NCBI RefSeq assembly: GCF_003073045.1
Contig: NC_037590.1
Coordinates: 5,792,016-5,856,015, forward strand
Origin: Pomacea canaliculata
Lineage: Eukaryota > Mollusca > Gastropoda > Architaenioglossa > Ampullariidae
Length of the DNA stretch: 64,000 bases
Reading direction: 5' to 3'
The notes below the pieces were generated by a model that saw nothing but the letters and a program-made list of their open reading frames with translations, was not told the origin of the DNA and did not search any database. This document shows, in pieces, positions 3,934 to 49,692 of the stretch. Positions within the stretch are counted from its first letter, which is position 1; every line of letters begins with the position of its first letter. The translations under genes and the position numbers were made by a program.

Positions 3934-6096
3934 TTACCAAGTGTTCTTAATAATGAAAAAACAAGCGATAAGAAAGAGGACCAATTCAGGTATTGGGTTT
4001 GGCTTCTTCACCCATCTAGACAGTCTCAAAAGATGGTCTTTTCTAGGCAAAGAAGTCGCCCAGTCATGGACTTCAAATGATGTCATCCAAGGAAGTAGCG
4101 GACAGTCGTCAACCTTGATTATCAGCAAAGACGACCGAGGAAGCATCTTGCTGGAAATCGCATTGTCGCCAATCATACCAGCCTCCAGGTGCTGTTTAAA
4201 CCTGTCATTCAAGTATTTCAAAGACAAGATGATAATATAGCGATCGCTGTTCTCAATGGCTGTGGACACTGCTGAAATTAGCTGAAGGTTAGGCGGAATT
4301 CCCAGCTCCGATGTGCACACTGTCTGCCCTCTTTCTTTTAACACAGGTAGAATCTGAGCTTTGACAAGTTCCATGTCCTCTTCTGAGTGAGATATAAAGA
4401 AGTCAAAATGCTGTCTTGAAAATTGCGTGTCTGCATCTTCAGGAATTTCTCGTCTGTAGATATCTCTGCGCCTCAAATTTGGAATGAACTCGTTAAAGAT
4501 CCGTCGTCCTGCATAATTTCCTGCCCATTTCACAAGCAAACAAGAAAAGCTCAGTATGATGGCAAACAGAACTATACCAGCTACTATCAGTAAGTTTTCC
4601 TTCCAAGCAAACTCATTTTCTATAGATGCTGCTGCGAGTTTTACATAATGCATGTCCTGTGGAGATGGAGTCCGTCGCTGACTGTCATGAGACGTTGCTT
4701 TATGGAAGTTTAACATGTCCTGCTCTCGAGGCAACACGACCAGTTCATCAGGATGATACACTTCCATCAATTGGTATTTGCCTGTACGGGCATTATAAAC
4801 CTGACGAAGAAAGTGAACATTGTGACGTCCATAAGTACTGGCACATAAACAGTGAAAATACCAAGGACGTTTTTGTCTTTTAAGATTCCATTCGAAATCC
4901 AAATTTTCGACAGTCGGAGGTAGCACGTAATTCTTATATCCAAAATAGAGGTAGAGTAGCAAAAGCTTTGAACATCCACTGAATTGACCTTCGCACCCCA
5001 TCAGTTCAGCTGGTTCTCCATTTATGAAGTATTCTGTCAAAATGTCGGAGCCGCTTTCACTCAGATGGAAATAGTCTGGTTGAAAGTGAATGATAGCTCC
5101 TGGTGGCACTGTTACGATTATTTGCTTACGAGAAGTTTCAGTAAGTCTAAATTCTTCGAAAGGGGAACTTGCATACATATTTTTCGCCATTTCAAACTTG
5201 TCTTCCAAATGGGTTTTCTCGGCAGTAAAGCTGCTAATTTTTTTAAGAAGCTCCTCTGTTCCTTTTCCTAAATCTAAAACGCTAACATAAATATCTGTTG
5301 ATTTCACTTTAAGGGTTATGTTATGACGATAAGTAAGTTGAACCTTATTCAGAACGTGACATGTGTAGTTTCCATAATCTTTCGACTTGACCATATATAT
5401 TCTGAGGGTTGCTGTAATTGTAACAAGACTCAAATCACGTTTTTCTTTTGAGTTCGTCAAAGTATCATTTTTTGTTGATTCTGTGATATTCAAGTCTTGT
5501 CTAAAACGTGCTGACGAAGGAAGCGGTTTTCTATTTTTCATCCAAACCACTTTAATGTCTTCTTGCGGCCCCAAAGTCCCGGTGAGTTCGCATTTAGAGG
5601 TGAAATAGGCATCTTCTCCTCTGTAAACGTATTTTTCTTCCAACCATACAGGTCGATGTTCTCCGTGTGTCTGAGGATGAACTATGTGATGTTTATGTAA
5701 TTTTCTGGACGGTGACAAAGAAATGATGTTGTCTTCAAAACGTTGAACCATTTCAGACTTGAAGACATTCCACGTTCCCGTAACTATGCCATCAAGAAGC
5801 AAAGCAGTAAACACGTAGGAAAACAAACATACGAAGATCACATAAACACATGGCCTTATCATGCCGTACTTGACGTACAGTCGACGAAGCATGCATACAA
5901 TCATAATCAGAAACAATTTTACATAGTTCAAACCTAACAAATATACTAATATGAAATATTCAGAAAAATCGCTGATGATGTTTAAATCATTCTCAGACTT
6001 GCGCCAAGACTGGTCCAGTATTACAAGTTTGATGATCTGATATATGACATAAACAAGCACACTTATGTTTATGAATGCTTTCATTCTGGACGTCAT
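3934..6096 (-). CDS. Ig-TIR multipass membrane receptor A
   Basis: A single uninterrupted frame encodes 720 residues. Three hydrophobic segments (about 8-27, 46-70, 82-104) precede an Ig-like domain with cysteines at 169 and 246, tryptophan 185 and a YGNYTC motif. A conserved ectodomain follows (about 315-460: VPPGAI, LSES, EYFINGEP, GCSKLLLLYLYF, CLCASTYGRHNVHFLR, LVVLPREQDML). A fourth helix spans 500-524 and the TIR domain 563-696 (box 1 FDFFISHS, box 2 GQTVCTSELGIPPN, then RYIIILS, HDW and LSRWV). A last hydrophobic tail lies at 703-718. Basic residues fit a cytosolic N-terminus and cytosolic TIR; several N-glycosylation sites lie in the predicted outer part. TIR domains act as signalling adaptors or NAD-cleaving enzymes, so immune signalling is likely. 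A possible 3' splice site (TCTGTAG) at 6103 suggests an intron in the 5' UTR. IL-1R-like receptors are the nearest concept, but those lack the N- and C-terminal helices. Confidence 0.85.
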   Translation of the reverse strand: MTSRMKAFINISVLVYVIYQIIKLVILDQSWRKSENDLNIISDFSEYFILVYLLGLNYVKLFLIMIVCMLRRLYVKYGMIRPCVYVIFVCLFSYVFTALLLDGIVTGTWNVFKSEMVQRFEDNIISLSPSRKLHKHHIVHPQTHGEHRPVWLEEKYVYRGEDAYFTSKCELTGTLGPQEDIKVVWMKNRKPLPSSARFRQDLNITESTKNDTLTNSKEKRDLSLVTITATLRIYMVKSKDYGNYTCHVLNKVQLTYRHNITLKVKSTDIYVSVLDLGKGTEELLKKISSFTAEKTHLEDKFEMAKNMYASSPFEEFRLTETSRKQIIVTVPPGAIIHFQPDYFHLSESGSDILTEYFINGEPAELMGCEGQFSGCSKLLLLYLYFGYKNYVLPPTVENLDFEWNLKRQKRPWYFHCLCASTYGRHNVHFLRQVYNARTGKYQLMEVYHPDELVVLPREQDMLNFHKATSHDSQRRTPSPQDMHYVKLAAASIENEFAWKENLLIVAGIVLFAIILSFSCLLVKWAGNYAGRRIFNEFIPNLRRRDIYRREIPEDADTQFSRQHFDFFISHSEEDMELVKAQILPVLKERGQTVCTSELGIPPNLQLISAVSTAIENSDRYIIILSLKYLNDRFKQHLEAGMIGDNAISSKMLPRSSLLIIKVDDCPLLPWMTSFEVHDWATSLPRKDHLLRLSRWVKKPNPIPELVLFLIACFFIIKNTW

Positions 6097-11280: not shown

Positions 11281-12316
11281 TCAATGTTCACATATTGCGT
11301 TTAATTTGATACCTCTCTGCACCCATCTGGAAAGTCTGCGTAGTTTGTCCTCTCTGGACAAAGATGTCGTCCAGTCATGAACTTCAAATGATCTCATCCA
11401 AGGAAGCAGGTGACAGTCATCGAGCTTTATAACGAGTAAAGACGACTGAGGTGACATCACGCTGGATATTGCTTTCATGCCAATAATATCTGTCTCTAGG
11501 TTTAGTTTCAATAAATCATTTAAATATTCCGAGGACCAGATAATAATGTAGCGAGCACTGTTGTCGATGGCTGTGGACACTGCTGAAAGTATCGGAAGGT
11601 TGGGTGGAATGTCCAGCTCCGATGTACACACCCTCTGTCCATGACCATGCAACACTGGGAGTATCTGATCAATCAGAAGATTCGAATTCCAGTCCACGTG
11701 AGAGATAAAGATGTCAAAATGCTGATTGGAAAAGTTTGTCTTTGCATCGTAGAGATCTTCTCGTCTGTCGATATATCCGAGTCTCAGACATGGAAGAGGC
11801 TGGTCAAGAATGAATCTTCCTGCATATTTTCCAACGCATTTAAGAAATAGATAGGAAAACAGCAGTATCAGAAAAAACACGCAGAATCCTATTACAATAA
11901 CTTTTGTTTCCGAACTATCAAATTCATTTACTACAGCTGTTCCAGCCATATTCACGTAGTGCATGTCCTGTGGCGAGGGAGGTTTAAGGTGTTGCCCGTT
12001 GTTATGAGATGTTCTGTTCTGAAACAGACTCAACATATCTTGCCCTCGAGGTACCACCACCAGTTGATGTTGATGACGAACTTCTAACAGTTCATACTTA
12101 CCAGCCGAGGAGTCATAAAAGCGGCGCAGGAAGTAAACATTGTGATATCCATATGTATTTTCGCACACACATTGATAGTACCTAGGAACTTTTATTCTTT
12201 GTAAAGCAGAGCTGTCATCTAGATTAAGAAGAAATGGAGGAATGATTTGAAAGTTGTAAGTAAAATACAAATAGAGCAGAAAAACCTTTGAGCATCCATG
12301 AAACATATCTGTGCAT
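11281..12316 (-). pseudogene. Ig-TIR receptor B, 5'-truncated copy
   Basis: This is a close copy of the C-terminal half of receptor D (32223-34361), sharing long identical stretches. Similarity starts at CTD-FHGCSK in the membrane-proximal ectodomain and covers the CVCENTYGYHNVYFLRRFY region, the transmembrane helix (about KVIVIGFCVFFLILLF) and the whole TIR domain (FDIFISHVDW, CTSELDIPPN, RYIIIWSSEY, HDW, LSRWV). It ends IKLNAICEH without the hydrophobic tail. The three N-terminal helices and the Ig domain are missing because the sequence breaks at 12316 and continues as a plus-strand ankyrin frame. The frame remains open upstream to an ATG at 12396, but those first residues are antisense to the ankyrin sequence. 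The open frame suggests recent truncation; a short membrane-TIR product is conceivable. Confidence 0.75.
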
Positions 12317-13377
12317 TGGTGGATGTGGGGGCTGATGTCAATGCTGGGCAGTTCACCACTTTGCACAACCGACGCTTCGCCTTGACTCCTCTGCACTTTG
12401 CACTCATCAGGGGCACACTTCCTGCCGCCAGCATTGTAAAAGTGCTGGTGAAGTCAGGAGCGGACCTGAGCTTGGAGGCAGCCAGAGCCGACAGCAGGGT
12501 GCCATGCGTGACGATCGTTAGAGAGTGTTCCTGCGGGATTTGCTTGTGTCTGGGTATCTACGTATTTCCCGATCTGCTGCTTCCCTCACACGGAGCTCGG
12601 TATGACGGTCAGATCAAAAGCGTGGGGACTGCTTTACACCTGGCAGTTAAGCGCAGCTTTGACCTGTCTGATATCCTCTCGGAAAAGCAACACAGACCGC
12701 TGATGAAAGTACCCGACGGTTCAGGCTACCTGCCTCTTCATTCCGCAGTCAAGAATTTAAACCAGAAAGCTATAAAGATCCTCCTTAGTTTGGGTGCTGA
12801 TGTTAACGCCAAGGCGTCTGGAAATTGTTGTATGCTGGGTAGAACGGCTCTTCACATCCTCTTTAATTTCAAGTTAGTAACGAGACTCCATTGTATCTTC
12901 TGCTCCCGCACACTGCAGCCTAGACACCACTTTAAAAAATGCGTGTCCCTTTTGCTGCAGCAACCTTTGGTGGATCTCAACGAGAGAGATTGGCAGGGTA
13001 GAACCCCGCTGCATGTTGCCTGCGAGTCCGGGCACTATGCCTTCATTGAGCAGCTGGTCGCTTGCGGGGCCAACGTCCTGGTGGAGGACAACAGGGGCGG
13101 CTCGCCGCTGTCCTACGCCGCGTGTCCCGCAGACAGGACCGTCCGTGAAATGCTCGTGGACGTCCTTCTGAGATGTGGAGCTGTCGTCTCGTGTCTGAAT
13201 ACACCCTTCTACCGTTCTCCAGTGCGAGCGTTCTACAGCCGCTATGACGTGGCCATCCTTTTGAAGCTGCACAACCGCGGGGCTATAACCCCCCAAGATC
13301 TGAGTTCAATGCTTTGTAGCATTACCATCCCTTACAATTTTGAGGCAAAGTACTGTAAAAGAAGAACAACGCGATGA
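12298..13377 (+). CDS. Ankyrin-repeat protein, probably 5'-truncated
   Basis: The open frame encodes 359 residues with about six ankyrin repeats (LTPLHFALIRG, TALHLAVKR, YLPLHSAVKN with IKILLSLGADVNAK, TALHILF, TPLHVACESGHYAFIEQLVA, SPLSYAAC), and ends KYCKRRTTR. Ankyrin repeats mediate protein-protein binding; the partner is unknown. The first six codons come from antisense receptor-B sequence. The ankyrin similarity starts mid-repeat just after the junction at 12316 (LVDVGADVNA). The real 5' end therefore appears to be lost, and the ATG at 12298 is accidental. It may be a 3' exon of a gene moved here by rearrangement. GC content is visibly higher than the surroundings, as expected for coding sequence. 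Whether it is expressed is unknown. Confidence 0.6.
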   Translation: MKHICALVDVGADVNAGQFTTLHNRRFALTPLHFALIRGTLPAASIVKVLVKSGADLSLEAARADSRVPCVTIVRECSCGICLCLGIYVFPDLLLPSHGARYDGQIKSVGTALHLAVKRSFDLSDILSEKQHRPLMKVPDGSGYLPLHSAVKNLNQKAIKILLSLGADVNAKASGNCCMLGRTALHILFNFKLVTRLHCIFCSRTLQPRHHFKKCVSLLLQQPLVDLNERDWQGRTPLHVACESGHYAFIEQLVACGANVLVEDNRGGSPLSYAACPADRTVREMLVDVLLRCGAVVSCLNTPFYRSPVRAFYSRYDVAILLKLHNRGAITPQDLSSMLCSITIPYNFEAKYCKRRTTR

Positions 13378-23417: not shown

Positions 23418-25685
23418 CTATGCAGTAAGCATCAACAGTAATTTCTTTATGATCAATGTATCAGACAAAGCCACATTAGAGATCCCCAAAAGTTGTACGA
23501 AAATTACAGAAAAAACGAACAGACAAATAAAAGGTATAAGGATGAATACAAGTTCATAGCATTCACGTTTTGCGTTTTGCTTTGTGCCCAGCTGCACCCA
23601 TCTAGACAATCTGTTCAACTGATTTTCTCTGGACAAAAAAGTCGTCCAGTCATGGACTTGAAACGACTTCATCCAAGGAAGCAGCTCACAGTCGTCAAGT
23701 TTGATACAGAGCAAAGACGACTGAGGTGATATGTCGCTACAGCTTGCTTTGTTGCCGATCATGTCCAGTTCCAAGTTTCTTTTGAATCGGTCTTTTAAAT
23801 ATTCTGAGGACAAGATGACAATGTAACGGTCACTGTTGTCAACGGCTGTGGACAATGCCGAGATCACTTGAAGGTTGGGTGGAATGTCTCGGTCTGGTAA
23901 ACACACTTTATGTCCCCGAGCTTCTAAAATAGGCAGAATCTGACCAGTTACCAGTTCAGCATCCGAGTCCGTTACAGATAAAAAGAAATCAAAATGTTTT
24001 TTAGAAAATTTAGTTTTCGCATCTTCCATACCTTGTTGATTCTCAGTCTGTCTGTGCTCTAAGCGTGGCAGGAAAGCAACTGTTTGGTCAAGAATCATCC
24101 TTCCTCCAAAGTTTCCAATGACACGAATAAGTCTGCGAGAGAGCCACAGAATTATAAAAGACACAAACATTCCGAGCCCAGCAACATATTTTTCATTACT
24201 TTCATACAAACTTGTAAATGCATTAGCAGCCATATTCACAAAATGCATGTCAGATGTGGTAGGACACTGTTCGTTATTTACATTGGATGTTCTGTTCTGG
24301 AATAAATATAACATGTCCTGTTCTCGAGGCAGCACTACCAGGTCATCAGGATGATACACTTCTAAAAGTTCATATTTCTTTTTCCGAGAATTATAAAATC
24401 GCCGAAGGTAGTAAATGCTGTGATGCCCGTAAGTTTTCTCACACAGGCAATGGTGATGATGATGAATTTTGGCTCTGTCTGGAAATGCTTTCAATTGATA
24501 ATTTTGAACAAATGGTGGAAATATTGTATACTCGTAACTGTAAAACCAGTAGAGCAGCAGAAACACTGAGCAGCCATTGAGCCTTCTGTTGCACGTTCCC
24601 ATTTGTGTTGATTGTTCGTTAATGAAATACTCTTCACTAACATCATCATTACTTTCGCTCAAATGCCAGTAACTGGTTTTAAACACAAGAATAGCCCCTG
24701 GTGGTGCCTGCCTGGTCATTTGACTTGGATGAACTTCGATAAGCCTGAATTCATGAGAAGGTGTGTACATGTCTTCTACACTTGTCTTCACGCTCAGTTC
24801 ATTTTTGTTCTCTTCAGTCGATTTGGATTCACCTTGATGTTGAAACGAGCCAGGAAAGTCAGAGTGAGCTTTTGATGCCTGAATCCGTTCATTAAGAAAA
24901 ACCATCCATTCTTGTATACTGTTCTGAACCATTTCGGCTACATGACAGGTGTAGTTTCCAAAGTCATAAGATTTTATCAGGTAAATTGTGAGTGTTGCTG
25001 TGATTTTATAAACGCTTAGATGATGCTCCTTCGCTATCTTAGTCAGCAAGTTTTGGTCCTCTGTTAGTTCTGTGAAAGTCAGCTCTTGGCGAAAACGCAG
25101 TGACCTAGGAAGTGGTTTTCCATTTTTCCTCCAGACCACTTGTTGTACGTACGGACGACCACCAGAAAGCCATAAAATCTGGCGTTCACATGTGAATTCA
25201 GCATCTTCGTCTCTGTAGCGAAATATCTCGTACAGAAGGAGGGGAGGTGTTTTACCACCTGTTAAAGGATGCACCCTGACCTTCTCAAAATCTGGTCTGG
25301 ATTCATCAACCTCAATGATGTTTTCTTGGAACCGACGAACCACTTCACCTTTTGAGAGGTTCCATATGTACATGGTCGTGCCATCAAGAATGAGGACAAC
25401 AAAAAAGCAAAACAGACACACAAAGACTAAATATATACAGAACCTTTTCCATCCATACAGAACTAAAAGTTGGAAAACCTTGCAAAACAGACAAATCGAA
25501 AACAACATTGCATGTTGCAGACTATATACAGAAGCTACTAACAGACAAACAGAAAAATAGTTTAAGACATTCATGTCATTTTCGAACTGACGCCAAGCTT
25601 GCTGCAGCAGTATTTGATGTATTATCAGGGAAACGGAGTAGGCTAAACAAAGCCCGAGCATCCATTTTCTAATTCTGAACGCCAT
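23418..25685 (-). CDS. Ig-TIR multipass membrane receptor C
   Basis: The longest copy, 755 residues in one frame. N-terminal helices lie at about 9-28, 47-69 and 81-102; between the first two is the conserved loop motif FENDMN. The Ig-like domain has C166, W185 and FGNYTC (C247). The membrane-proximal ectodomain (about 313-460) keeps APPGAI, LSES, EYFIN, GCSVFLLLY, CLCEKTYGHHSIYYLRRFY and DDLVVLPREQDML. A fourth helix is at 499-517. The TIR domain is at 564-697, with box 1 FDFFLSVTDSD and the most canonical BB loop of the cluster (PDRDIPPN). A strong C-terminal helix follows (710-734), then about 20 residues. Five consecutive histidines occur at 408-412. It is the most divergent family member. 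Likely an innate immune receptor; ligand and adaptor unknown. No adjacent intact small membrane gene. Confidence 0.85.
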   Translation of the reverse strand: MAFRIRKWMLGLCLAYSVSLIIHQILLQQAWRQFENDMNVLNYFSVCLLVASVYSLQHAMLFSICLFCKVFQLLVLYGWKRFCIYLVFVCLFCFFVVLILDGTTMYIWNLSKGEVVRRFQENIIEVDESRPDFEKVRVHPLTGGKTPPLLLYEIFRYRDEDAEFTCERQILWLSGGRPYVQQVVWRKNGKPLPRSLRFRQELTFTELTEDQNLLTKIAKEHHLSVYKITATLTIYLIKSYDFGNYTCHVAEMVQNSIQEWMVFLNERIQASKAHSDFPGSFQHQGESKSTEENKNELSVKTSVEDMYTPSHEFRLIEVHPSQMTRQAPPGAILVFKTSYWHLSESNDDVSEEYFINEQSTQMGTCNRRLNGCSVFLLLYWFYSYEYTIFPPFVQNYQLKAFPDRAKIHHHHHCLCEKTYGHHSIYYLRRFYNSRKKKYELLEVYHPDDLVVLPREQDMLYLFQNRTSNVNNEQCPTTSDMHFVNMAANAFTSLYESNEKYVAGLGMFVSFIILWLSRRLIRVIGNFGGRMILDQTVAFLPRLEHRQTENQQGMEDAKTKFSKKHFDFFLSVTDSDAELVTGQILPILEARGHKVCLPDRDIPPNLQVISALSTAVDNSDRYIVILSSEYLKDRFKRNLELDMIGNKASCSDISPQSSLLCIKLDDCELLPWMKSFQVHDWTTFLSRENQLNRLSRWVQLGTKQNAKRECYELVFILIPFICLFVFSVIFVQLLGISNVALSDTLIIKKLLLMLTA

Positions 25686-32156: not shown

Positions 32157-32222
32157 TCACGCAATCCACTTGGTGATGATTAGAAACATAGCTATAATAA
32201 GCTTCAGAAGAAATAGCAATGG
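32157..32222 (-). other. In-frame relic of receptor D's C-terminal helix
   Basis: Directly after the receptor D stop codon (TGA at 32225-32223) the same frame continues for 21 codons, PLLFLLKLIIAMFLIITKWI, before a second stop at 32159-32157. This is hydrophobic and sits where receptors A, C and F have their C-terminal membrane segment. It is therefore the lost tail of receptor D. Only read-through could include it. Confidence 0.7.
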
Positions 32223-34361
32223 TCAAAAGGTGCTTTGTTTACAGAGACTAAGTTTCGTGTCTCGCTTGACGCCCTTCTGCACCCATCTGGACAGTCTGCG
32301 CAGGTGGTCCTCTCTGGACAGAGTGGTCGTCCAGTTATGGACTTCAAATGACCTCATCCATGGAAGCAACGGACAGCCGTCAAGTTTGATAATGAGCAAG
32401 GGCGACTTACAAAACTTCTTGCTGTAGATTGATTTGTGGCCAATCATCTCTACCTCCATGTTTAGCTTAAGCTCATCATTCTTATATTCCGAGGACCAGA
32501 TGATAATGTAGCGAGTGCTGTTGTCAATGGCTGTGGACACTGCTGAAAGTATCGGAAGGTTGGGTGGAATGTCCAGCTCCGATGTACACACCCTCTGTTC
32601 ATGACCATGCAACACTGGGAGTATCTGATCAATCATAAGATTCAATTTCCAGTCCACGTGAGAGATAAAGATGTCAAAATGCTCATTGGAAAACTTTGTC
32701 TTTGCATCGTCGAGATCTTCTCGTCTGTCGATATATCCGAGTCTCAGACATGGAAGTGGCTGGTTAAGAAAGAATCTCCTTGCATATTTTCCAACGCATT
32801 TAAGAAATAGACAGGAAAACAGCAGTATCAGAAAAAACACGCAGAATACTATTACAATAACTATTGTTTCCCACAAATAAAATTCATTTACTACAGCTGT
32901 TCCAGCCATATTCACGTAGTTCATGTCCTGTGGAGAGGGAGGTTTAAGGTGTTGCCCATTGTCATGAGATGTTCTGTTCTGGAACAGGCTCAACATATCT
33001 TGCCCTCGAGGCAACACCACCAGTTGATGTGGATGACGAACTTTTAACACTTCATACTTACCAGCCGAGGAGTTATAAAAGCGGCGCAGGAAGTAAACAT
33101 TGTGATATCCATATGTATTTTCGCACACACATAGAAAGTACCAAGGAGATTTCATTCTTTTGAAAGGAGGTATCATTTCCAGATTTGCAACGAATGGAGG
33201 AATTTTTGGGAAGCTATAAGTAAAATACAAATGGAGCAGAAAAAGCTTTGAGCATCCATGAAAGATATCTGTGCATAGTGACATTTCAACTGGTTGCCCG
33301 TTTATGAAATATTCCGTGGAAACGTCTTCATTGCTTTCACTCAAGTGCAGGTAGCGAGTTTTGAAAGTCAAAATGGCTCCAGGCGGCACAGATATGACAG
33401 TTTGTTTACGAGGAATTTCAATAAGCCTGAACTCTCTCGGAGAGTTTATTATTTTAATTCCTGCAAGCATTACAAAATCATCATCTACTTTTATTTCTGC
33501 GACAAAATTTCTCTTTATTCGCTCAATGGGTAGTGTAAGATCTTCAAACCGATTATAACCAGCGAAAGATATTTTATCTTCTCCAGCCATCATTTTAGAA
33601 CGTTCTAGTATTCCCATTATATGTACTAAGTGGCAGGTATAGTTTCCAAAGTCATAAAATTTCACCTGATAGATTTTGAGTGTTGCTATGACTTTAAAAA
33701 TGGCCATAGGAGGGTAATTTTCTGGAACCAACTCATGAGTATAATTATAAACATCATACGGTAATGGCGTAATGATAAGTTCTTGTTGATAACGTCTTAA
33801 CGAGGGAAGTAGTTTCCCATTTCTCTTCCAAATCACTTCAACGTATGGATTACTACCCGGGAAGCCGATGGTATCTTCTTCACAGGTAAAAGCAATATCT
33901 TCTTCTCTGTACCGGTACTCTTCGATCACAGATTGAGAAGTACGCGTCTCATTTTCATCAAATCTTCTGGACTCTTCTACAACAATGAAGTTTTTTTCAA
34001 CGCGAGTATCCAATTCATGCTCTGCGAACTTCCAAATGGCCATGCCAGTGCCACAAAGAATACAGAAAACGAAGACCAATGAAAATAAAATCACGATCAC
34101 GTATTTACATAATCGTCCTTTGTTGAACTGTGAGAGACGTTCATAAAAAGTGGTAAATTTCAGAAATAAATACAACACCGAGAGTCTGAGACTAAATACA
34201 GATGTTTCATTAAGACAAACCACAAGATACCTAAAGGTATTTAAGTCATTTTCAAACTGGTGCAACGCTTCAGCCAACATAAACACTAACTGAACTGCGA
34301 TGACGACATACCAACTTCCACATATGACTAATTTATACCTGAACAACATGTTTCTCAACAA
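32223..34361 (-). CDS. Ig-TIR multipass membrane receptor D
   Basis: 712 residues in one frame. N-terminal helices lie at about 10-30, 53-71 and 86-108, with loop motif FENDLN. The Ig-like domain has C160, W178 and FGNYTC (C243). The conserved ectodomain (about 308-460) includes VPPGAILTF, LSESNEDVSTEYFINGQP, HGCSKLFLLHLYFTY, CVCENTYGYHNVYFLRRFY and LVVLPRGQDML. The fourth helix is at 499-521 and the TIR domain at 561-694 (FDIFISHVDW, CTSELDIPPN, RYIIIWSSEY, HNW, LSRWV). It ends KRDTKLSLCKQSTF, lacking the hydrophobic tail seen in A, C and F. It is almost identical to truncated receptor B over the shared part. A candidate 5' UTR exon lies at about 37014-37050, with a possible acceptor (TATTACAG) ending at 34401. 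A small membrane-protein gene starts 4.3 kb upstream on the other strand. Confidence 0.85.
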   Translation of the reverse strand: MLRNMLFRYKLVICGSWYVVIAVQLVFMLAEALHQFENDLNTFRYLVVCLNETSVFSLRLSVLYLFLKFTTFYERLSQFNKGRLCKYVIVILFSLVFVFCILCGTGMAIWKFAEHELDTRVEKNFIVVEESRRFDENETRTSQSVIEEYRYREEDIAFTCEEDTIGFPGSNPYVEVIWKRNGKLLPSLRRYQQELIITPLPYDVYNYTHELVPENYPPMAIFKVIATLKIYQVKFYDFGNYTCHLVHIMGILERSKMMAGEDKISFAGYNRFEDLTLPIERIKRNFVAEIKVDDDFVMLAGIKIINSPREFRLIEIPRKQTVISVPPGAILTFKTRYLHLSESNEDVSTEYFINGQPVEMSLCTDIFHGCSKLFLLHLYFTYSFPKIPPFVANLEMIPPFKRMKSPWYFLCVCENTYGYHNVYFLRRFYNSSAGKYEVLKVRHPHQLVVLPRGQDMLSLFQNRTSHDNGQHLKPPSPQDMNYVNMAGTAVVNEFYLWETIVIVIVFCVFFLILLFSCLFLKCVGKYARRFFLNQPLPCLRLGYIDRREDLDDAKTKFSNEHFDIFISHVDWKLNLMIDQILPVLHGHEQRVCTSELDIPPNLPILSAVSTAIDNSTRYIIIWSSEYKNDELKLNMEVEMIGHKSIYSKKFCKSPLLIIKLDGCPLLPWMRSFEVHNWTTTLSREDHLRRLSRWVQKGVKRDTKLSLCKQSTF

Positions 34362-38580: not shown

Positions 38581-38709
38581 AAAGACGCGAGCGATTATCG
38601 ACGGAATTTACTTGGCAGTTGCTGCAGTTGACAGAAGACGTTGTCTCTACTAACGGAGGTCGAGTTCAGATCCTACATACTTCCAGAGGCGACACCAGTC
38701 AAGGTGGGA

Positions 38710-39120: not shown

Positions 39121-39820
39121 GTCAGTACTAAGATACATCTGATTTTTTTTGTTTTACCAAAGTAACGCGATCCTGTGATGATGATAAGCGCGCAGCCGCT
39201 TTGTAACTGTAAAAGAAAAGAGTAAACCGTTTAATATAAAGTTTAACGGGTGATCACGTGTTAAAGCTTATATTTTCAGTAGCATGCCATACAGCTTTTT
39301 CTTAGAAATATTTTAGAAGTACTCCTAGTTTATTAATTGACAATTTTAATTGTTCAATTGTTGGTTAGGCATTGCCCACACCAAGAGAATGCTTTGGTGG
39401 ACTGTGGCGTGAATACTGTGATGGTTCAGTGAGTAAGGCAAGCACTGACACTACATGTCATTCCTTTACTTGCGTGCATTCTCCGTCTGCAGACACACTA
39501 GGACGTCTCTTGGCAAGAAACAAGAGTTGGGTATGAATTCAGTGACATCCAGTGACCTGTGACCTCAAGTCAATACATGAACCAGGAACCACATGAAGAG
39601 AAAGACTTTGCAGGCTATTGCAGAAAGATCATAGCGGTTAATATCACAAATAACTGAACGTGTACAAGACTGTGACCAATACAAATAAAAATATTATTGT
39701 TAAATCAACATTTTCATTGTCGTGTTTCATACTTTATTGGTATTGGCCATGGTCTTGAACACTATTACTTATTTCTGAGACCGTATCCAGCTCAAGACGA
39801 CGGATACCCTCGGTGTTTGC
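39121..39820 (+). other. Conserved 3' flank of small gene copy 1
   Basis: Matches the downstream regions of the genes at 41125 and 53218, for example TTTGTAACTGTAAAA, AGTAGCATGC.ATACAGCTTTTTC and CATTCTCCGTCTGCAGACAC. It probably contains the 3' UTR. No separate gene. Confidence 0.5.
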
Positions 39821-39822
39821 CT

Positions 39823-40254: not shown

Positions 40255-40284
40255 AGGGTTAGGGTCAGGGTTAGGGTTAGGGGT
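40255..40284 (+). repeat. Interstitial telomere-like (TTAGGG)n
   Basis: About four and a half units of TTAGGG with one TCAGGG variant, directly after a (GT)n stretch and the CACTA array. TTAGGG is the standard telomere repeat of molluscs and vertebrates. Confidence 0.8.
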
Positions 40285-40484
40285 AAAAAAGATATGTGTT
40301 CTTTGATCTTGGCATCTGTTCATCTGTATGCCTCGGACTTAAGCGTTCAGATGGGGTTTGTCGGAGACACACGACACTCACATTTAGCCATATCCGACAA
40401 GATGTCACAAGATGTCGGCAGGTACGGCAAGAAATGGAAGAGGTGGCTCCATGTGACAAGATTTTATAGGATTCTCTTCATCTT

Positions 40485-40748
40485 TCAGGTCTGCTTGTGT
40501 TGTATAATAATTTCAGTTTTACCCAGGTCAGTTAACCATTCAGCGGGAATTTCTGTATAACTACGACCAAAACAAAACAATAGAAAAAATATAAAGACCA
40601 CACACATGATGTATGGGAATGTATAGAGGTAGAAGAAACCTCTCGCTATACACAAGAGATATTTTTGATAGTGTGAAAAACTTGAATCCTGATCGTACAC
40701 CGGGTACATCTGTCGAGAGGTCATCAGAAATCGCCTGACCTTGAACAT
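40485..40748 (-). CDS. Possible small single-pass membrane protein
   Basis: From ATG at 40748 the frame encodes 87 residues: a basic N-terminus (MFKVRRFLMTSRQMYPVYDQ), one strong hydrophobic segment (about 41-66, FFYLYTFPYIMCVVFIFFLL) and a polar tail ending IIIQHKQT. The second copy at about 52600-52890 aligns over the whole length but is frameshifted. The ORF starts just below a GAATATTCGCTA motif, on the opposite strand to small gene copy 2. It may be a real small gene, an exon of a larger one, or a chance frame in duplicated DNA. No family recognised. Confidence 0.3.
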   Translation of the reverse strand: MFKVRRFLMTSRQMYPVYDQDSSFSHYQKYLLCIARGFFYLYTFPYIMCVVFIFFLLFCFGRSYTEIPAEWLTDLGKTEIIIQHKQT

Positions 40749-40784
40749 GTTCTCTTTTTGACTGTACAAGATGACACTACCATA

Positions 40785-40796
40785 GAATATTCGCTA
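40785..40796. promoter_or_regulatory. GAATATTCGCTA motif (small gene copy 2)
   Basis: Lies 330 bp upstream of the ATG of small gene copy 2, followed by TATATAAATGATAACTTTGTCA and CAGTCGTAGAGTTCGTTAGG. The following (TATATAAA) could act as a TATA box. The same motif plus GTAGAGTTC occurs upstream of the receptor F candidate exon. Confidence 0.45.
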
Positions 40797-41124
40797 TATA
40801 AATGATAACTTTGTCAGTCGTAGAGTTCGTTAGGATAAAGAAAGGTGTACATAAGCTACATAAGCTACCCAGCTAACTCCTCTGAGGACCGTTCGACCTT
40901 GTGTAGATGGAAGGCGGCGATCTACTTCAGCGGGAATTCCGTCTTTCTATTTGTATTTACAGCCACTTAGGATAATGTGATAAGGAAAGACTAGGGCGAG
41001 TATAACAGGAGTTTATTTATCACTTCCTGCTGTTGACACAAGACGTTGTTTCTGTTAACTTTCACAAAGGTCGAGTTCAGATCGTGCATCTTCAGATCGA
41101 GAGGCCAAACCGGTCAGGGTGAGA

Positions 41125-41457
41125 ATGGACGTCGAAGATCTTGCAAGGAAAGTTTTCATATTTTTCTACAGACTAACAGTGGGGCTGGTGGTGGAGTTAG
41201 TTAAACAATCGATGCTAATGGTGATCGTCGCTGTCGCGGTGTTGATGTGCCTGGTTGTCGGGGCCTTGACCGTGTGGCAGACATACGAGCACACACACAA
41301 CGCCGTCCTGACGCTGCTGGTGGGTTGTGGGGCTGTTGCTGGTGGATATGTCGTCATCATCCTTGTTCGGCGTCTGGCTCTTAACCTCTGGCTCGTGGCG
41401 CCTGATCCAAAGTCATCGACTGATGTGTTACAGTTGTTGCTGCCTGAAGGTCATTGA
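41125..41457 (+). CDS. Small orphan multipass membrane protein, copy 2 (shortened tail)
   Basis: The ATG at 41125 gives 110 residues. The hydrophobic core is intact: 8-50, then WQTYEHTHNAVLTLLVGCGA, then the last helix to about 81. The C-terminus stops at LLLPEGH. In the copies at 38710 and 53218 the frame continues for about 30 polar residues ending in KK/RRV. Here the tail codons are still recognisable downstream (GTAAGGTCGTCTCGTCAG...) but out of frame, because one base is missing relative to copy 1 in the codons after LLLP. The membrane part may still be made. Part of segmental duplication unit 1. Confidence 0.6.
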   Translation: MDVEDLARKVFIFFYRLTVGLVVELVKQSMLMVIVAVAVLMCLVVGALTVWQTYEHTHNAVLTLLVGCGAVAGGYVVIILVRRLALNLWLVAPDPKSSTDVLQLLLPEGH

Positions 41458-44323
41458 GTGCTGAAGTAAGGTCGTCTCGTCAGTTGACGACATCTGCAGT
41501 TTCCGGGACAAAGGTCGAGAACAATGGCGTGTCCAAGAAACGAGTTTAGGTCAGTTCTAAGATAAATCTGATTTTTTTTTCATGATAGTAATGCGGTCTT
41601 GTGATGTTATTAAGCGCGTCACCGCTTTGTAACCGTAAAAGAAAAGAGCATTTGATGTAAAAACGAGGAATATAAAGTTCAGCGGGTGATACCGTTGCTC
41701 AGTGGAGACCACGTTTTACAAGCTTATACATGTATTTTTAGTAGCATGTTATACATGTTTGTCATAGAAACATTCTAGAAGTACTGGTAGTTTATAAATT
41801 TACAGTTTTAATTGCTGAACTATTAGTCAGACTTTGCTCAGAGCAAGACAATGCCTTCGTATGCTCTGCCGTGAAAACTGTGACGGTTCAGTGAGTAAGG
41901 CCATCAGTTACACCTCGTCCCATTACTTCACTGTTGTACACTCTCCGTCTGCAGACACATGGGGTTGTCTCCTCAAGGGACTAGGAGCTGAGTATGAATT
42001 CAGTGACATCCAGTGACCCGTGACTCCATCTCGCAGTGACTTCGTCAGTACATTAACCAGGATCACATGAGAGAAAGATTTGCAAGCTATTGCAGAAGGA
42101 TTATAATATCACAAATAACTGAACGTATATAAGACATTGACCATTACAAAAATATTATTGTCTTGTTTCAATGAACATTTTATGCTGAACCTCATACATT
42201 TTTGTACTGATCAGCCTTGAGCACTATGACTTATTTCTGAGAACGTTTACAGCTGAAGACGATGGATACCATCATCGCACACTGTGTTTGCAAATATTTT
42301 TTTTATATATCGCTCCTTGTGTCAGTTAAGAACAGAAAGCGAGTGTTCATAATCCGTATCTGCTTGGGTGCTTTCAATCCCGCGTTGTGCCATTTCGACT
42401 TCTCTCGACAAGAGACCTTGAACTGATCTCCAACAACCCGTAACCGTTGGTCACAACCGAATGCAGTATCGACACGAAGAGCTACAACCTTGCAAAGTGT
42501 TCGAGAGGACAGAATATTTATGTAAAATGCTGCATGCAAAACGAACCCTACGACACGAGGCAACCGTTGATAGCCGTCAACACACGATTATTTTCAGGAA
42601 AAAAATGTTTTTCTGATACATGTTACATACCAATATTTTAAACATCATGATTAAAAGCGCTGAGCAATATAAGTAGGAAAATACAATGTATCTTAATTAT
42701 CATGTGTTGTTAATAATATCCATTGCTTTCTGTTTTTGATTTATATTTTACAATTGTTATTTCACTCGTTTGAGTACCGAAGAGTAAGGAAGATATCGTA
42801 AATGTTGTTTGTTCAGGTTACAATGTTATCATTTCTTTCGTGCAAAATGTATTTATACAATTTAATATGTTCTTTTCCATTTTATCAACATGAGCATTTG
42901 TCAAATGATGGTAAATATATTATTGACAAGTCCGAGGGAATCTTGAAAGTGTATATTTTTCCAATAAGAAACAAACCAATGTGATAAAAAATAAATGATT
43001 TATAGTTAAAAAAAATGTTACCCTTTCAGAACTAATTGTTGCTGAAGTCTTCTAGTCTTCAGAGCAACATTTTTATAAGCGATAGAAACAATCTATACGA
43101 TGATATATATGATATATATAATCATGGCTATCAACCATGCAGGCTTTAAGATATATAAAATATATGATCTTACATGCGTTTTCAATCAGGGCCTTTTTCC
43201 TGTAGACTATATTTCAGCATTTATATGCCGTAGGTTTATTCATTATTTATGTATTATTAACCATCTCTCTCAAATAAAAATTGTTTAAAAAGTGATTAAA
43301 AGAACTGCTAAGTTATGTCTTTATTTATATTCAAGGTGTAAGTACTCAATGTACTCCAGAATGAGCATAAAGGCTCTGTGTCAAACAAACTGCAATCAAA
43401 TAAAAATAATATGTAAAATATAGAAAACAAGATAAATACCAAAAAAGTTGTATAACAAAATAACCTGTGACATTGTAAAAGTACTTAGGCAAAGGATTTA
43501 TTCTGTCTTTATTTGAAGCCATTTTTTATTTTAGACAATTTATCCAGTAAAAGTATGTTTTTGTACATAAGGGATAATGATCTAAATACGAGTTTTATTT
43601 AATATAATTTAAGTAAAATTGTTGATCCTGATAGTGAGACTGTTGAAGCCGAGGAGTTTTTTTTAACATAGGATTTCTCGAACGGTTTTAGTGTCACGTA
43701 TACCTGTGTTTTACCTGTTTTATTGCGAAGGTATATAACGCGTTCAGGGGAGGCAATGACCTTTACTAAGATAAATTCGGAGTACAGTCCCTTACATTGT
43801 GTTTCGTCTTAGCATCAACATGCAGTTCTTTGTCGATATGCCTAGTCTAATTTTACTGTGTTCTTTAAATAATTCGTTAAATAAAATATTTCCGTAAATT
43901 ACAAATGTGCGTCGTTTCATTTGTTTCTGGATTAAGACTGAAAACTTGTGATATTTTTATTTGTCCCTTATATCTCGGAGAAACTATAGTTCTGGTGCAG
44001 ATCAAGACTTAAACTGAGATATGAATTAATGTGTTGACGATTTATCGATATAAAAATGCTAAGCTTATTTACGTTACATATGCAAATGAGGGTCATAACC
44101 CTTGACAATGACAGCTTGTGTCCAAGAAAGTTTTAAAAGAGAGGTGACTGTGATCATCGAATGCTTTGAGGTTAAATTAGAAAATCTTCAAGTACGCTGA
44201 CAAACGTTTTCCAACTACAAACATGGAATCGTTCATGAATTCATCATTGTTATTGCACCACATGGTATGTTCATATTAATTTCAAAGGCGTATAAAGGTA
44301 GGCTCGGTGAGGGACATAATAGC
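41458..44323. other. Spacer of duplication unit 1
   Basis: AT-rich; the first about 600 bp match the 3' flanks of the other small genes and the rest matches unit 2. No coding domain. Conservation with unit 2 is uniform rather than focused, giving no sign of a hidden exon. Confidence 0.4.
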
Positions 44324-44691
44324 CAGGGTTGTCCATGGGACATATTTTTCTATCCCGTCCCATCCCATCCCATGGCAATTTATGCCTGTCCCATCCCGTC
44401 CCATCCCACGGGATGTTTCCCATGGGATTCCCATGGTATTAACAATCCAATGGACAACACTGAAAACCACTTTTCGGCTTTTGTTCTATAATTCCTGCTA
44501 CTTCACATACAATAGATGATTCAGAGGAAAGATTTAAATCCTTGATGAATGAAATAACAGTAAATTTATTTTGCAATATCAAGTATCGACTACCATGGGA
44601 AATACAAATGTGTGCTGTCCCATCCCATCCCATCCCATGGGACGTTTCCCATGGGATTCCCATGGGATTCCCATTCCTATGGACAACACTG
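44324..44691. mobile_element. Non-autonomous hAT element (MITE), 368 bp
   Basis: The ends are CAGGGTTGTCCATGGG (left) and CCTATGGACAACACTG (right), inverted copies of each other. Exact 8-bp direct repeats ATAATAGC flank it (44316-44323 and 44692-44699). TIRs starting CAG and 8-bp duplications are diagnostic of hAT transposons. The interior is rich in CCCAT/ATGGG palindromes and holds an extra TIR-like end near 44446-44461, suggesting a composite structure. No transposase. The paralogous unit 2 carries the unoccupied site (ATAACAGC at 56242-56249). Confidence 0.9.
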
Positions 44692-44699
44692 ATAATAGC

Positions 44700-45745
44700 A
44701 AACCAGAGTACTTCATTAGACAATATAGGGGCGGATGACATTATTTTGGCTGATACGTGATCAGTGGTTTAATATTCATAAACTGAGGGTTTAGGTGTGC
44801 ATGAGTTAAAATCCCACATTTACAACGCAGGAAGGTGCAATTATTGTTTGCACAAAGTGGAGTCGGCAAGGAAGTAAACTAATATTTGTATTCATGTGGA
44901 GAATGTGCTGAGTACAGTGAGGAAAATACCCTTTCCGCATTAGTGATGTCGTTAATGAGTCTTTATACGATAATGATAAGACAGTTTTATACAAGGTGAT
45001 GTTACTTTGTGAAACATTATAAATAATTTTCCGAGAAAATAGTAAATGAATTAGACTTTATTAGATATCATTTAACAGAACATAGGATTATGCTCTGGTG
45101 TCACAACAGAAGTTTTACTCTCACACACATCCAGACTTTAAACATAACTAAATGCTCCTAAGAAGATTATACGTGTGTGTGTGTGTATCATGCTTATATT
45201 TTTAATCCACCCTGAGGATGTTTTTGCCGCACAGCATCTCGCACCTGTTGAGAGTGTTATGTATGTACACAACTACTGACCCAGTTGAAAACACAACCAG
45301 CCACGCAGGCATCGTCGGCAGAGGTGACAATCATACAACACCTTTGACACCAGACACGGAGATGGTTGTCCTTCAGGAGAGTAACGACCTTCATTTGCAT
45401 ATCATGCAATATGCCACGTGGCACAGCTCGATGTATATTAATATGTCAAAGCTGCTTTGAAAAGAAACTTTCAGTAATTTCAGGTGTAAAATCACTCATG
45501 TAACACGTGCCTAATAAACGTCATACCTTACATTGACGAAATAATAACAGAAACAAAACTGAAATTGGAAATACAGGTAGGGCTGAGAATTGAAAGTTAA
45601 GTTTTATCGCTTAATAAATGTTATTTGGACTTACGTAGATCGTCGAAAACTAAGGATAAAAATAGACAGTGAACGATGGCGACCGTGTCACCGAGACCTT
45701 TTGCGTCCTCTCATTGCTGTTATTTTATCTTTCTGTCTCGTTTTC
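44700..45745. other. Spacer of duplication unit 1, right part
   Basis: Matches 56250-57112 and 57625-57805 of unit 2. Holds short (GT)n runs. No coding domain. Confidence 0.4.
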
Positions 45746-45747
45746 GA

Positions 45748-45995
45748 GGCCTTGACCGTGTAGCAGACACGAGCGCACACACGACGACGCCCTGACAGTG
45801 CAGTGGGTTGTGGGGCTGTTGCTGGTGGATATGTTATCATCATCCGTGTTCGGCGTCTGGATTGTGGCGTCGTCAGATCTGCGCCATCGTCATCGACTGA
45901 TGTGGTACAGTTGTTGCTACCCTTAAGGTCCTCAAGTGTTGGAGTAATGTCGTCTCGTCAGTCAAAGATGTCTGTAGTCTCTAAAACTTGTTACA
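45748..45995 (+). pseudogene. Relic of small orphan membrane-protein gene
   Basis: Starts abruptly at the end of duplication unit 1 and aligns with codons for TALTVWQTYEHTHDA onward in the intact genes. An in-frame TAG replaces the tryptophan codon of VWQ, and small deletions shift the frame. The last helix (GCGAVAGGYVIIIRVRRLD) and SSTDVVQLLLPLRSS are still readable. The first half is missing. Not functional. Confidence 0.75.
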
Positions 45996-45999
45996 TTGT

Positions 46000-47290: not shown

Positions 47291-47523
47291 ATCGTGAATA
47301 ACGAAGCATATAATTCTTGCATAAGAAATATTCATAATAAAAATGTACAATATTAAATCAAATTCATTACATATGAAGAGAAGAGTCGTTTTATAAATGC
47401 AAAAAGATCTTTGAGTGAAACTGTAACTATAAGTAATGAATATGCTTTATTTACAAATGATAGTTTTAATTTGAAAAATAAACCACCAGACCCAATCGAT
47501 ATACTGTATCTTCAAAAGATACG
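47291..47523. other. Short spacer before receptor F stop codon
   Basis: AT-rich, no gene. Confidence 0.3.
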
Positions 47524-49692
47524 TCAAACGGTATGCCAGATGGCAAGGAAAAATATAACAAAAAGAAAGAGGATAATAAAAGGCAAAGAAATGCTGCAAA
47601 TATCGAGGAATTGCCCTTTTGCGTTTTGTTTGTTGCCCTTCTGCACCCATCTGGACAGTCTGCGCAGCTGGTCATCTCTAGATAAAGTCGTTGTTGTCCA
47701 GTCATGGACTTCAAACGGTGTCAACCAAGAAGGAAGCTGAGAGTGGTCATTCTTGATTACAAGTAAAGCCGTCTGAGGTGGCATATTCCTATCAATTGCG
47801 ACGCTGCTAATCATACCTACCTCCAGATTTTGCTTCAACTTGTCTTTCGAATATTCTTTGGACCAGATAATAATGTAACGAGCGCTGTGTTCGACGGCTG
47901 TGGACAGAGCTAATGTTACTGGCAAATTGGGTGGGATGTCCAGCTCCGATGAACACGTTCTTTGTCCACGAGCACGTAACACGGGTAGAATTCGACCGAC
48001 AACTATTTCTGTATCCCATTCTGAGTGAGATATCAAGATATCAAAATTATAACGTGCATCGCCGGTGTCGTCTGTTCTATCGACCTCTCTGTGCCTTAGA
48101 CATGGAAGTGGCTGGTTAAGAATGCATCTTCCAGCATATTTTCCTATCCATTGAATAAGCAGACAGAGGATCCATAGCACGGAGACAAATAAACCCACCA
48201 TTGTTCCAATAAGAAAGCTTTCGCATAAATCAAACACATTTTCTTCTCCTTTTGCTGCCATTTTTACGAAATGCATTACCTCTGGAGGAAGAGACTCAAA
48301 AGTTTCATTAAAAGTTATGTTCTGTTGAAAGAAGTTTAACATGTTCTGCTCACGAGGAAGCACAATCAATTCGTCGGGATGTTTAGCCTCCAGAAGTTCG
48401 TATTTGCCTTTATGGACGTTGTAAAAGTGACGTACATAGTGAGTAGTGTGACGTCCATAAGTCTTGGTACATACACATTGGCGATACTCAGAAGATTTCA
48501 CTTTTTCTGAATAACTTTCTCTATCGTTATTTTGACTAAACGGACCCAGCGAGAAGAATTCGAAATTTAAATACAAGTACAGCAGCAAAAGCTTAGAGCA
48601 TCCTTTAAAGGGTCCTCTGCATACTCCCCCTTCAGCTGATTCTCCGTTTATGAAATACTCTGTAGAAACGTCTTCATAGCTTTCACTCCGATATCTGTAC
48701 TGGGCTCTGTATATAAGAAAAGCTCCTGGCTGCGCAGTTATGGTTATTTGTCTACGAGGAATTTCAACAATCGCGAACTTTGCCGTTGCGTACTTCTCTT
48801 TCACAAAAAAAGGCTTGTCTTCAAAGCTTTTTTTTGTTTTATGATAGCTCAATATTTCGCAAGCAACTTCTTTTCTTTCTTCAGTAGAGTTAAGAATACC
48901 AACATACATTTCTCCTGATGTGTTATGCGTTACTTTTTTAAGAGCTGACACTTGTATCCTTTGTACAATATTGCATGTGTAGTTTCCAAATCCATCGGAG
49001 TCCAGGAAGTATAATGTAAGTGTTGCTAACACAGTATATTTTCTCTGTGTATGCTTTGATGCTGATTGCGCAAAATCGTCATTTTTTGTTGATTCTGTGA
49101 CATTCAGAGTTAGGTGAAAGCGAGTTGACGAAGTAAGTGGTTTTCCATTTCTAAGCCAAATCACATTAATATCTTTTTCCAGACTTTTTGAACTTCCAGT
49201 GACAGTACCAAGACAGGTCAACAGAACATCTTCTCCTTTGTAATAATACGAGTAGAAGATCGAAGTATCAATGTTTGTCGGCCTGTAAATTGTGGGTCGG
49301 AGTTGAAAACCATCTAAGTAAATGATGTTGTCTTCGAAACGACGAACAATTTCTGACTTGAAAACATTCCAAATTCCCAGAACAGTGGCATCAAGAATTA
49401 TAACAACAAACACGTAAGAAAACAAGCACAGGAAGATCAAATAAACAGATAACCTCACGGGGCCCCACTGTACATAAAACTGACCAACCTTGCATAGAAA
49501 CCAACATAGAAACAACCTTGAGTAACATAGAAAAAATAGAAAAAGTAACTCAAAGTTCTTAGAGAAATGGTTGATAGTGTTTAAATCATCATCGTATTTG
49601 TTCAACGATTGGTTAAAAATCACATGTTTTGCGACATAAAGACTCATGAAGCACAGACACACTTTTATGAATGGTTTCATTTTGGTGAGCAT
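47524..49692 (-). CDS. Ig-TIR multipass membrane receptor F
   Basis: 722 residues in one frame. N-terminal helices lie at about 9-26, 48-68 and 82-106, with loop motif YDDDLN. The Ig-like domain has C160, W179 and FGNYTC (C240). The conserved ectodomain (about 306-450) includes QPGAFLIY, SESYEDVSTEYFINGES, KGCSKLLLLYLYL, CVCTKTYGRHTTHYVRHFY and DELIVLPREQNML. The fourth helix is at 492-514. The TIR domain is at 549-683 (FDILISHSEWD, CSSELDIPPN, RYIIIWSKEY, HDW, LSRWV), and the C-terminal helix is at 697-719 (SISLPFIILFLFVIFFLAIW). A possible acceptor (ATTTTTAG) ends at 49706, 13 bases before the ATG, and a conserved candidate first exon lies at 51204-51240. A small membrane-protein gene starts 3.5 kb upstream on the plus strand. 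Likely membrane immune receptor; ligand unknown. Confidence 0.85.
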   Translation of the reverse strand: MLTKMKPFIKVCLCFMSLYVAKHVIFNQSLNKYDDDLNTINHFSKNFELLFLFFLCYSRLFLCWFLCKVGQFYVQWGPVRLSVYLIFLCLFSYVFVVIILDATVLGIWNVFKSEIVRRFEDNIIYLDGFQLRPTIYRPTNIDTSIFYSYYYKGEDVLLTCLGTVTGSSKSLEKDINVIWLRNGKPLTSSTRFHLTLNVTESTKNDDFAQSASKHTQRKYTVLATLTLYFLDSDGFGNYTCNIVQRIQVSALKKVTHNTSGEMYVGILNSTEERKEVACEILSYHKTKKSFEDKPFFVKEKYATAKFAIVEIPRRQITITAQPGAFLIYRAQYRYRSESYEDVSTEYFINGESAEGGVCRGPFKGCSKLLLLYLYLNFEFFSLGPFSQNNDRESYSEKVKSSEYRQCVCTKTYGRHTTHYVRHFYNVHKGKYELLEAKHPDELIVLPREQNMLNFFQQNITFNETFESLPPEVMHFVKMAAKGEENVFDLCESFLIGTMVGLFVSVLWILCLLIQWIGKYAGRCILNQPLPCLRHREVDRTDDTGDARYNFDILISHSEWDTEIVVGRILPVLRARGQRTCSSELDIPPNLPVTLALSTAVEHSARYIIIWSKEYSKDKLKQNLEVGMISSVAIDRNMPPQTALLVIKNDHSQLPSWLTPFEVHDWTTTTLSRDDQLRRLSRWVQKGNKQNAKGQFLDICSISLPFIILFLFVIFFLAIWHTV

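Follow-up and report, generated by a model that had tools for sequence, protein, structure and literature searches.

Can an animal receptor hold its TIR domain between two membrane segments? This question is raised by a locus of the gastropod Pomacea canaliculata, which we analysed in a stretch of 64,000 nucleotides (contig NC_037590.1, positions 5,792,016 to 5,856,015 of the forward strand; hereafter the window). The minus strand carries four single-exon open reading frames (ORFs), referred to here as A, C, D and F, together with the broken copies B and E. All four ORFs have a common layout, in which a block of three N-terminal helices precedes an Ig-like domain, ectodomain 2 (a region marked by four cysteines), a fourth transmembrane helix (TM4) and a TIR domain; in C and F, and marginally in A, a further hydrophobic segment (the tail) follows the TIR. 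Based on these observations, we propose that the cluster is a family of animal membrane receptors, encoded by intronless genes in tandem and evolving by birth and death, whose TIR would be tethered by a fifth membrane segment, a reading towards which the evidence inclines us slightly. The copies are located as follows.

3934..6096, minus strand: copy A, 720 amino acids, single ORF with three N-terminal helices, Ig, ectodomain 2, TM4, TIR and a short hydrophobic tail
11281..12306, minus strand: copy B, 5'-truncated, tail region apparently shifted and stopped
23418..25685, minus strand: copy C, 755 amino acids, full architecture, Ig below the Pfam cut-off
32223..34349, minus strand: copy D, 708 amino acids, Ig and TIR below the Pfam cut-off, stop preceding the tail segment
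46381..47267, minus strand: remnant E, decayed pieces (ectodomain 2, TIR) found by tblastn
47524..49692, minus strand: copy F, 722 amino acids, full architecture, Ig below the Pfam cut-off

The four complete frames each run from an ATG to a stop, with an in-frame stop no more than 12 codons upstream of every ATG. When each copy was compared with the window by tblastn, A, C, D and F aligned with one another nearly end to end at 38-44% identity, with gaps that were never intron-sized, and we therefore consider them single-exon paralogues. A preliminary description of this DNA had recognized A, C and F as full-length and intronless, to which D adds a fourth full-length copy, and the common architecture that it had described is borne out by Pfam, tblastn and hydropathy, with some uncertainty in the helix count of C. 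An ordinary single-span receptor of the IL-1R type, with N-terminal helices and tail mis-called through missing exons, would explain the occurrence of Ig plus TIR, the IL-1R domain pair, but it fits poorly with start codons that all lie just behind an in-frame stop and with a three-helix block common to all four copies, and we regard it as very improbable. Copy B is a second half only (part of ectodomain 2, TM4 and TIR) and is a probable pseudogene. Its DNA is 88.3% identical to that of D over 1003 columns, and this closeness indicates that duplication and loss in the cluster have been partly recent.

The membrane topology was deduced from hydropathy and loop charges, for which copy F provides the reference positions.

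49393..49671, minus strand: three N-terminal helices of F, residues 8-100 (hydropathy)
48907..49260, minus strand: Ig-like domain of F, about residues 145-262
48223..48780, minus strand: ectodomain 2 of F with its four conserved cysteines, residues 305-490
48154..48210, minus strand: TM4 of F, residues 495-513 (hydropathy)
47638..48060, minus strand: TIR domain of F, residues 545-685

Three hydropathy peaks recur in every full-length copy, around residues 7-27, 80-101 and 495-522. A second hydrophobic region lies at 49-67 in A and F and is weak in D (43-61, Kyte-Doolittle hydropathy (KD) 1.33); in C it is long and double-peaked (38-56 and 59-77), so that the number of helices in the N-terminal block of C is not certain. 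The TM4 of C is weaker than the others (KD 1.57). Near the membrane, lysine plus arginine exceeded aspartate plus glutamate in 12 of the 12 loops assigned inside, and the acidic residues prevailed in 9 of the 11 loops assigned outside, with no charges at the ends of A and F, which make up the remaining two; the helix limits used for these counts were partly set by hand. Following the positive-inside rule, this bias points to an N-terminus inside, an Ig outside and a TIR inside, in agreement with the placement of Ig and TIR reasoned in the preliminary description, and an N-Y-T glycosylation-type motif within the Ig of all four copies agrees with the Ig being outside. The first helix could instead be a signal peptide, leaving a mature protein with TM2 and TM3, the Ig outside, TM4, the TIR inside and the tail. 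In all four copies the N-terminus is short and basic and leads into a hydrophobic core, which would suit this, but no clear small-residue cleavage site was seen by eye in A, C or F, and the placement of Ig and TIR is the same either way; we consider it an unlikely variant, which is compatible with a tethered TIR and does not compete with it for probability.

Searches with the N-terminal block returned only sodium/glucose cotransporter 2 (two distinct sequences) from the PDB at E = 1, and from Pfam YtcA (0.034) and Sarcoglycan_1 (0.5), each in one of four members; the match to Sarcoglycan_1 in full-length C reached 0.0079, below the Pfam cut-off. Kinship with any of these three was rejected, the matches being judged chance matches of hydrophobic sequence.

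The TIR domain is of the receptor/adaptor type (TLR/IL-1R/MyD88) by sequence, as deduced from its matches in the PDB. A profile of five sequences matched the TIRs of TLR15, TLR1, TLR6, IL1RAcP and MyD88. On the Ig side it matched domains of titin, of Dpr-interacting proteins and of others, and TIR and Ig matches together came to 27 sequences at E <= 1. The TIR of C alone matched TLR, IL-1R-family, Hydra Toll-related or MyD88 chains in 24 of 24 cases (E <= 10), and a profile of TIR plus tail matched receptors or MyD88 in 22 of 26 (E <= 1), the other four (4lzp, 7uwg, 7uxr and 6wt6) having E > 0.1. In Pfam, TIR_2 was above the cut-off in A, B, C and F and TIR in A and C only, with the TIR matches of D below it; NCBIfam yielded four families, each in one of five members, the best at 0.009 (a TIR-bearing family) and the others at 0.07-0.19. 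The domains contain a box 1-like motif, FD(F/I)(F/L)(I/L)S, and all five have IPPN at the place of box 2, where RDIPPN of C aligns to RD..PG with the proline kept, glycine replaced by asparagine and the arginine occurring in C only. At the region of the last helix, RLSRWV is invariant and no FW pair of box 3 was seen; the structure alignments shown end before that region. This naming of boxes agrees with the available part of PMC7075850.

The distinctive element of the family is the segment that follows the TIR, and its position relative to TIR and TM4 is given below for A and C; the tails of F and D are added.

3940..3987, minus strand: C-terminal hydrophobic segment of A, residues 704-719, marginal (hydropathy)
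4003..4437, minus strand: TIR domain of A, residues 554-698
4531..4587, minus strand: TM4 of A, residues 504-522 (hydropathy)
23496..23552, minus strand: C-terminal hydrophobic segment of C, residues 712-730, strong (hydropathy)
23589..24023, minus strand: TIR domain of C, residues 555-699
24126..24182, minus strand: TM4 of C, residues 502-520 (hydropathy)
32160..32222, minus strand: tail remnant of D, an in-frame hydrophobic stretch past the stop
47545..47601, minus strand: C-terminal hydrophobic segment of F, residues 698-716, strong (hydropathy)

The tail begins about 12 residues (C and F) or 3-5 residues (A) past the TIR boundary used. Its hydropathy is strong in C (712-730, KD 3.17) and F (698-716, KD 2.91) and marginal in A (702-720, KD 1.69). 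Summed simply on the biological insertion scale, the tails of C (-4.0) and F (-3.3) come out as favourable, and simple hydropathy does not place the last segment of these two copies as soluble. The frame of D ends before the tail, and when read on past its stop it continues as PLLFLLKLIIAMFLIITKWIA until the next stop. The tail region of B is apparently frame-shifted and stopped, and its segment seems to be lost.

A hydrophobic stretch at the end of a frame might also be a chance read-on into T-rich 3' DNA, in which case the protein would functionally end after the TIR and the whole cluster would perhaps be decaying. The broken state of B and E and the stop of D ahead of the segment speak for this, as does the frequency with which local noncoding DNA supplies a segment like that of A: in a baseline of 34,098 overlapping stop-free windows of 19 codons from noncoding parts of this DNA, the KD of the tail was reached by 3.2% for A and by 1.5% for the value of D, and among stretches of 60 codons from random noncoding points a KD of at least 1.69 occurred before a stop in 3.3%. 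The values of C and F, on the other hand, were reached in just 0.12% and 0.20% of the windows (a KD of at least 2.9 occurred before a stop in 0.24% of the random stretches), several pairs of tails align and keep their hydrophobicity, and four ORFs of more than 700 codons are still open at pairwise synonymous divergences (dS) of 0.78-1.24. We therefore consider read-on improbable.

The conservation of the tail was followed at the level of both DNA and peptide. Ahead of the segment, a clear DNA alignment is obtained among B, C, D and F. A short block past it looks similar in three of these, B, D and F, and less similar in A and C, a likeness to which no statistic is attached. Alignments of the tail peptides scored better than shuffled ones for C-F (0/2000) and A-F (0.0015) and, with D read on, for F-D (0.0065) and A-D (0.0185). 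The tails of C and F differ in 27 of 63 nucleotides and have nonetheless kept their hydrophobicity, and in the pair of F with D read on 30 of 54 bases differ. When the observed number of nucleotide differences was placed at random (50,000 runs per pair), the hydrophobicity was reached without a stop in 0.27% of runs from F to C, 0.22% from C to F, 0.008% from A to F and 0.47% from F to D read on. Considering that hydrophobicity was kept between C and F despite so many differences, the segment is probably ancestral and selected; it is probably real and under selection in at least the lineages of C and F, whereas in A its support is weak, and D and B have lost it. The 16-25 residues initially ascribed to the tail thus hold for C and F and are generous for A. 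Of the initial idea of a TIR placed between two membrane segments, the C-terminal hydrophobic segment, probably ancestral, is supported; spanning of the membrane is a prediction that may not extend to every member, the segment being marginal in A and absent from D and B.

Several observations weigh against a tethered TIR as a property of the family. The tail of A has at most 12 consecutive residues free of D, E, K, R, N, Q and H, which is short and marginal for a span, and its insertion-scale sum is unfavourable (+5.1), as it is for some other helices (TM2 of D, +6.6; TM1 of F, +4.6). The tail alignments are weak for A-C (0.05) and C-D (0.09), and the simulated chance from F to A, 7.7%, is not significant. 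The ratio of nonsynonymous to synonymous substitution rates (dN/dS), estimated with the NG86 method pairwise over shared codons, gives no evident constraint on the tail for F-A (0.64, 24 codons) or F-C (0.76, 39 codons); values with D (16 codons) are scattered (0.27 for F-D and 1.16 for C-D), and other pairs are saturated or too short. With values of 0.27-1.16 on 16-39 codons, tail dN/dS alone is no sign of constraint. As D and B do not have the segment, it is either dispensable or these copies are decaying. The full-length AlphaFold model, built from five sequences, is poor (mean predicted local distance difference test score (pLDDT) of 43); in the Foldseek search that followed, TIR structures (MyD88, Hydra TRR-2 and TLRs) ranked first, none of them at E <= 0.001, and unrelated structures such as an actin-capping protein were also listed. 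Finally, the reading rests on the DNA of one locus in one species.

Some of these points would also fit a hydrophobic C-terminal helix that does not span the membrane but re-enters it or packs against the TIR or TM4, in a protein of four spans with a membrane-associated TIR tail. The uncharged core of A would be short for a normal span, and in A and F the protein ends soon after the segment. Against this, the segments of C and F match the strongest of the remaining helices of their own proteins in hydrophobicity (KD 3.17 versus 3.22 in C and 2.91 versus 2.75 in F), and the hydrophobic moment of the tails is low (0.11-0.15), like that of the other helices. We hold a non-spanning helix to be rather unlikely, though it is the more serious of the two alternatives for the tail.

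If the tail does span, a scheme for these tethered receptors can be proposed. The N-terminus would lie inside and be followed by three helices, the Ig and the four-cysteine domain would be outside, and helix four would lead to the TIR in the cytosol; in C and F, and more weakly in A, the fifth hydrophobic segment would then end within the bilayer or on its outer side. The TIRs may be brought together when the variable ectodomains bind ligand or cluster, and a TIR of the TLR/IL-1R/MyD88 type could recruit a MyD88-like adaptor. The tail would pin the TIR near the membrane and allow mainly side-by-side contacts in the membrane plane, in line with the restriction on TIR filaments or dimers supposed in the preliminary description, and copies without the segment, such as D, would have a free TIR tail. 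In the flavodoxin-like fold of TIR domains, the start of the first strand and the end of the last helix are on the same face, and double anchoring is thus sterically plausible. We tentatively put forward, as a possibility somewhat short of even, that these multi-pass Ig receptors present the TIR as a cytosolic loop fixed at both ends, with assembly only lateral in the membrane plane, that the tail-less D is freed from this constraint, and that the four-cysteine ectodomain and the three-helix module are both new. If true, tail-bearing and tail-less paralogues in one genome would be a natural test of the freedom needed by TIR signalling, and a multi-pass layout with an ectodomain of no recognised kin would join the invertebrate immune receptor kit.

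In the usual description, a TIR receptor spans the membrane once and its TIR is a free tail that forms dimers or filaments. A close likeness is to the IL-1 receptor family, with which the snail proteins share an extracellular Ig-like domain, a membrane helix and a cytosolic TIR, the latter matching IL1RAcP, IL1RAPL1/2 and SIGIRR in sequence. According to the available part of PMC7075850, each of the 10 human members of that family crosses the membrane with one helix and carries either one Ig-like domain or three. The snail proteins differ by three extra N-terminal helices and by pairing a single recognised Ig with a region for which no family was detected; by hydropathy, they have four hydrophobic regions instead of one helix (the second being weak in D), plus the tail in C, F and marginally A, where the TIR of IL-1R has a free end, as it also does in D. 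The best TIR matches are to TLR15, TLR1 and TLR6, but unlike the TLRs, which bear leucine-rich repeats (LRRs), the snail ORFs yielded no LRR family in a Pfam scan up to E = 1. A TIR receptor without LRRs is also a likeness to the TLR-like proteins of Hydra, and the TIR of Hydra TRR-2, which we take to be the protein of the study on these TLR-like TIRs, was among the matches. In the accessible text of PMC8260672, the Hydra proteins combine a transmembrane domain with an intracellular TIR.

Exceptions to the single span are known. Toll/TLR proteins are single-span with few exceptions, as stated in the portion available of PMC7075850, and TLR7 of salamander and frog is given two transmembrane domains in the part available of PMC6043800. 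In the sections at hand of PMC9334734, the Aplysia TLR LOC101863390 has two TIRs and three transmembrane domains, like an end-to-end fusion; here a TIR may also sit between spans, but through fusion of receptors. An Ig-TIR class is named in a paper on oyster (PMC4346834, figure legend) and in the Aplysia paper (PMC9334734), whose Table 5 has no Ig-TIR row, and sea-anemone Ig-TIR proteins have an IL-1R-like layout (PMC5094078), each as far as the accessible extracts go. The occurrence of Ig and TIR in one protein of a non-vertebrate animal is thus shared with these, and the available extracts of the three accounts mention no multi-pass or tail-anchored form, those on oyster and Aplysia merely naming the class. 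Sea-anemone NLRs, whose N-terminal part bears a cluster of 3-5 transmembrane domains (PMC5094078, in the extract available), resemble the snail family by a helix cluster on an immune-type protein and differ in being NLRs and not Ig-TIR proteins, a comparison by layout only. In the open literature searched, which covers papers only in part and leaves subscription papers and protein databases outside, a multi-span or C-terminally anchored TIR layout was not met, and this is not evidence of absence. The family had at first been thought undescribed; this may hold for the layout, as far as that literature goes, and not for the Ig-TIR combination, since single-span Ig-TIR receptors are already known and it is the multi-pass, tail-bearing layout that departs from them. 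Among viral and prokaryotic contigs, 38 and 31 pattern matches were obtained, none of which was confirmed by tblastn, a result of little bearing on animals.

The extracellular part consists of an Ig-like domain of recognisable type and of ectodomain 2. I-set was above the Pfam cut-off in A only, with the Ig matches of C, D and F below it; a tryptophan and G-N-Y-T-C are common to A, C, D and F, and D-x-G-x-Y-x-C to A, C and D. Ectodomain 2, between the Ig and TM4, contains four cysteines (two early ones, then C-x-C) that are conserved wherever a copy covers them, and its T-Y-G-x-H motif is invariant in all five copies. It matched no Pfam family at E <= 10 in five members scanned, and in the PDB up to E = 10 only a sulfatase (0.062) and a gas-vesicle protein (1.2), kinships that were rejected as chance. 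Its profile compared with the Ig profile of the family itself gave a probability of 0.6% (E 0.097), and its AlphaFold model (pLDDT 40) had no Foldseek match at E <= 0.001; an Ig-like nature of ectodomain 2 is neither shown nor excluded by these results. By judgement only, we also rejected a membrane span within it at the stretch CSKLLLLYLYF (KD about 1.3 in B and F), since this stretch lies next to conserved cysteines and includes residues that are polar or charged in A and F.

Selection differs between the parts of the protein. Overall dN/dS is 0.35-0.65 in ten pairs (D-B 0.60); it is lowest in the TIR (0.22-0.42, ten pairs) and higher in the Ig (0.35-0.98, six pairs), and ectodomain 2 has 0.32-0.69, except for 0.97 in D-B. 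With dS of 0.78-1.24 (0.21 in D-B), these values are rough. A conserved TIR behind a faster-evolving ectodomain would be the pattern expected of an immune receptor family and, as judged from sequence, is not proof of an immune role.

Around the cluster, an ankyrin-repeat ORF (12298-13377, plus strand) overlaps with its start the broken 5' end of copy B, whose homology stops between 12315 and 12333, where this opposite-strand ORF begins; the overlap suggests a rearrangement junction. Long collinear direct repeats (40274-45739 and 52404-57791, 79-92% identical in pieces) enclose the segment with remnant E and gene F, and more copies, partial ones, occur at 38556-39811 and 45734-45981. These repeats might represent a mobile element or favour unequal crossing-over, and five ORFs from the repeat area had sub-threshold Pfam matches or none. 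Scans of the 64-kb window with Rfam and for tRNA found nothing. A C2H2 zinc-finger ORF (17058-18140, minus strand) contains an 84-base tandem repeat, with related units past its stop down to 16904, and a galactosyltransferase ORF (59566-60837, minus strand; Pfam Galactosyl_T, E 6e-39) has an N-terminal hydrophobic stretch by eye. A dispersed repeat links 1-390 and 3465-3859 with 19413-20385 (83-90% identical in pieces), one copy lying just downstream of A. Within 600 nucleotides past the stop, no AATAAA was found for A, C and D; D has an ATTAAA at 200 and B an AATAAA at 375 nucleotides, and in F an AATAAA (47446-47451, minus strand) lies 73 nucleotides past the stop, with an ATTAAA at 54.
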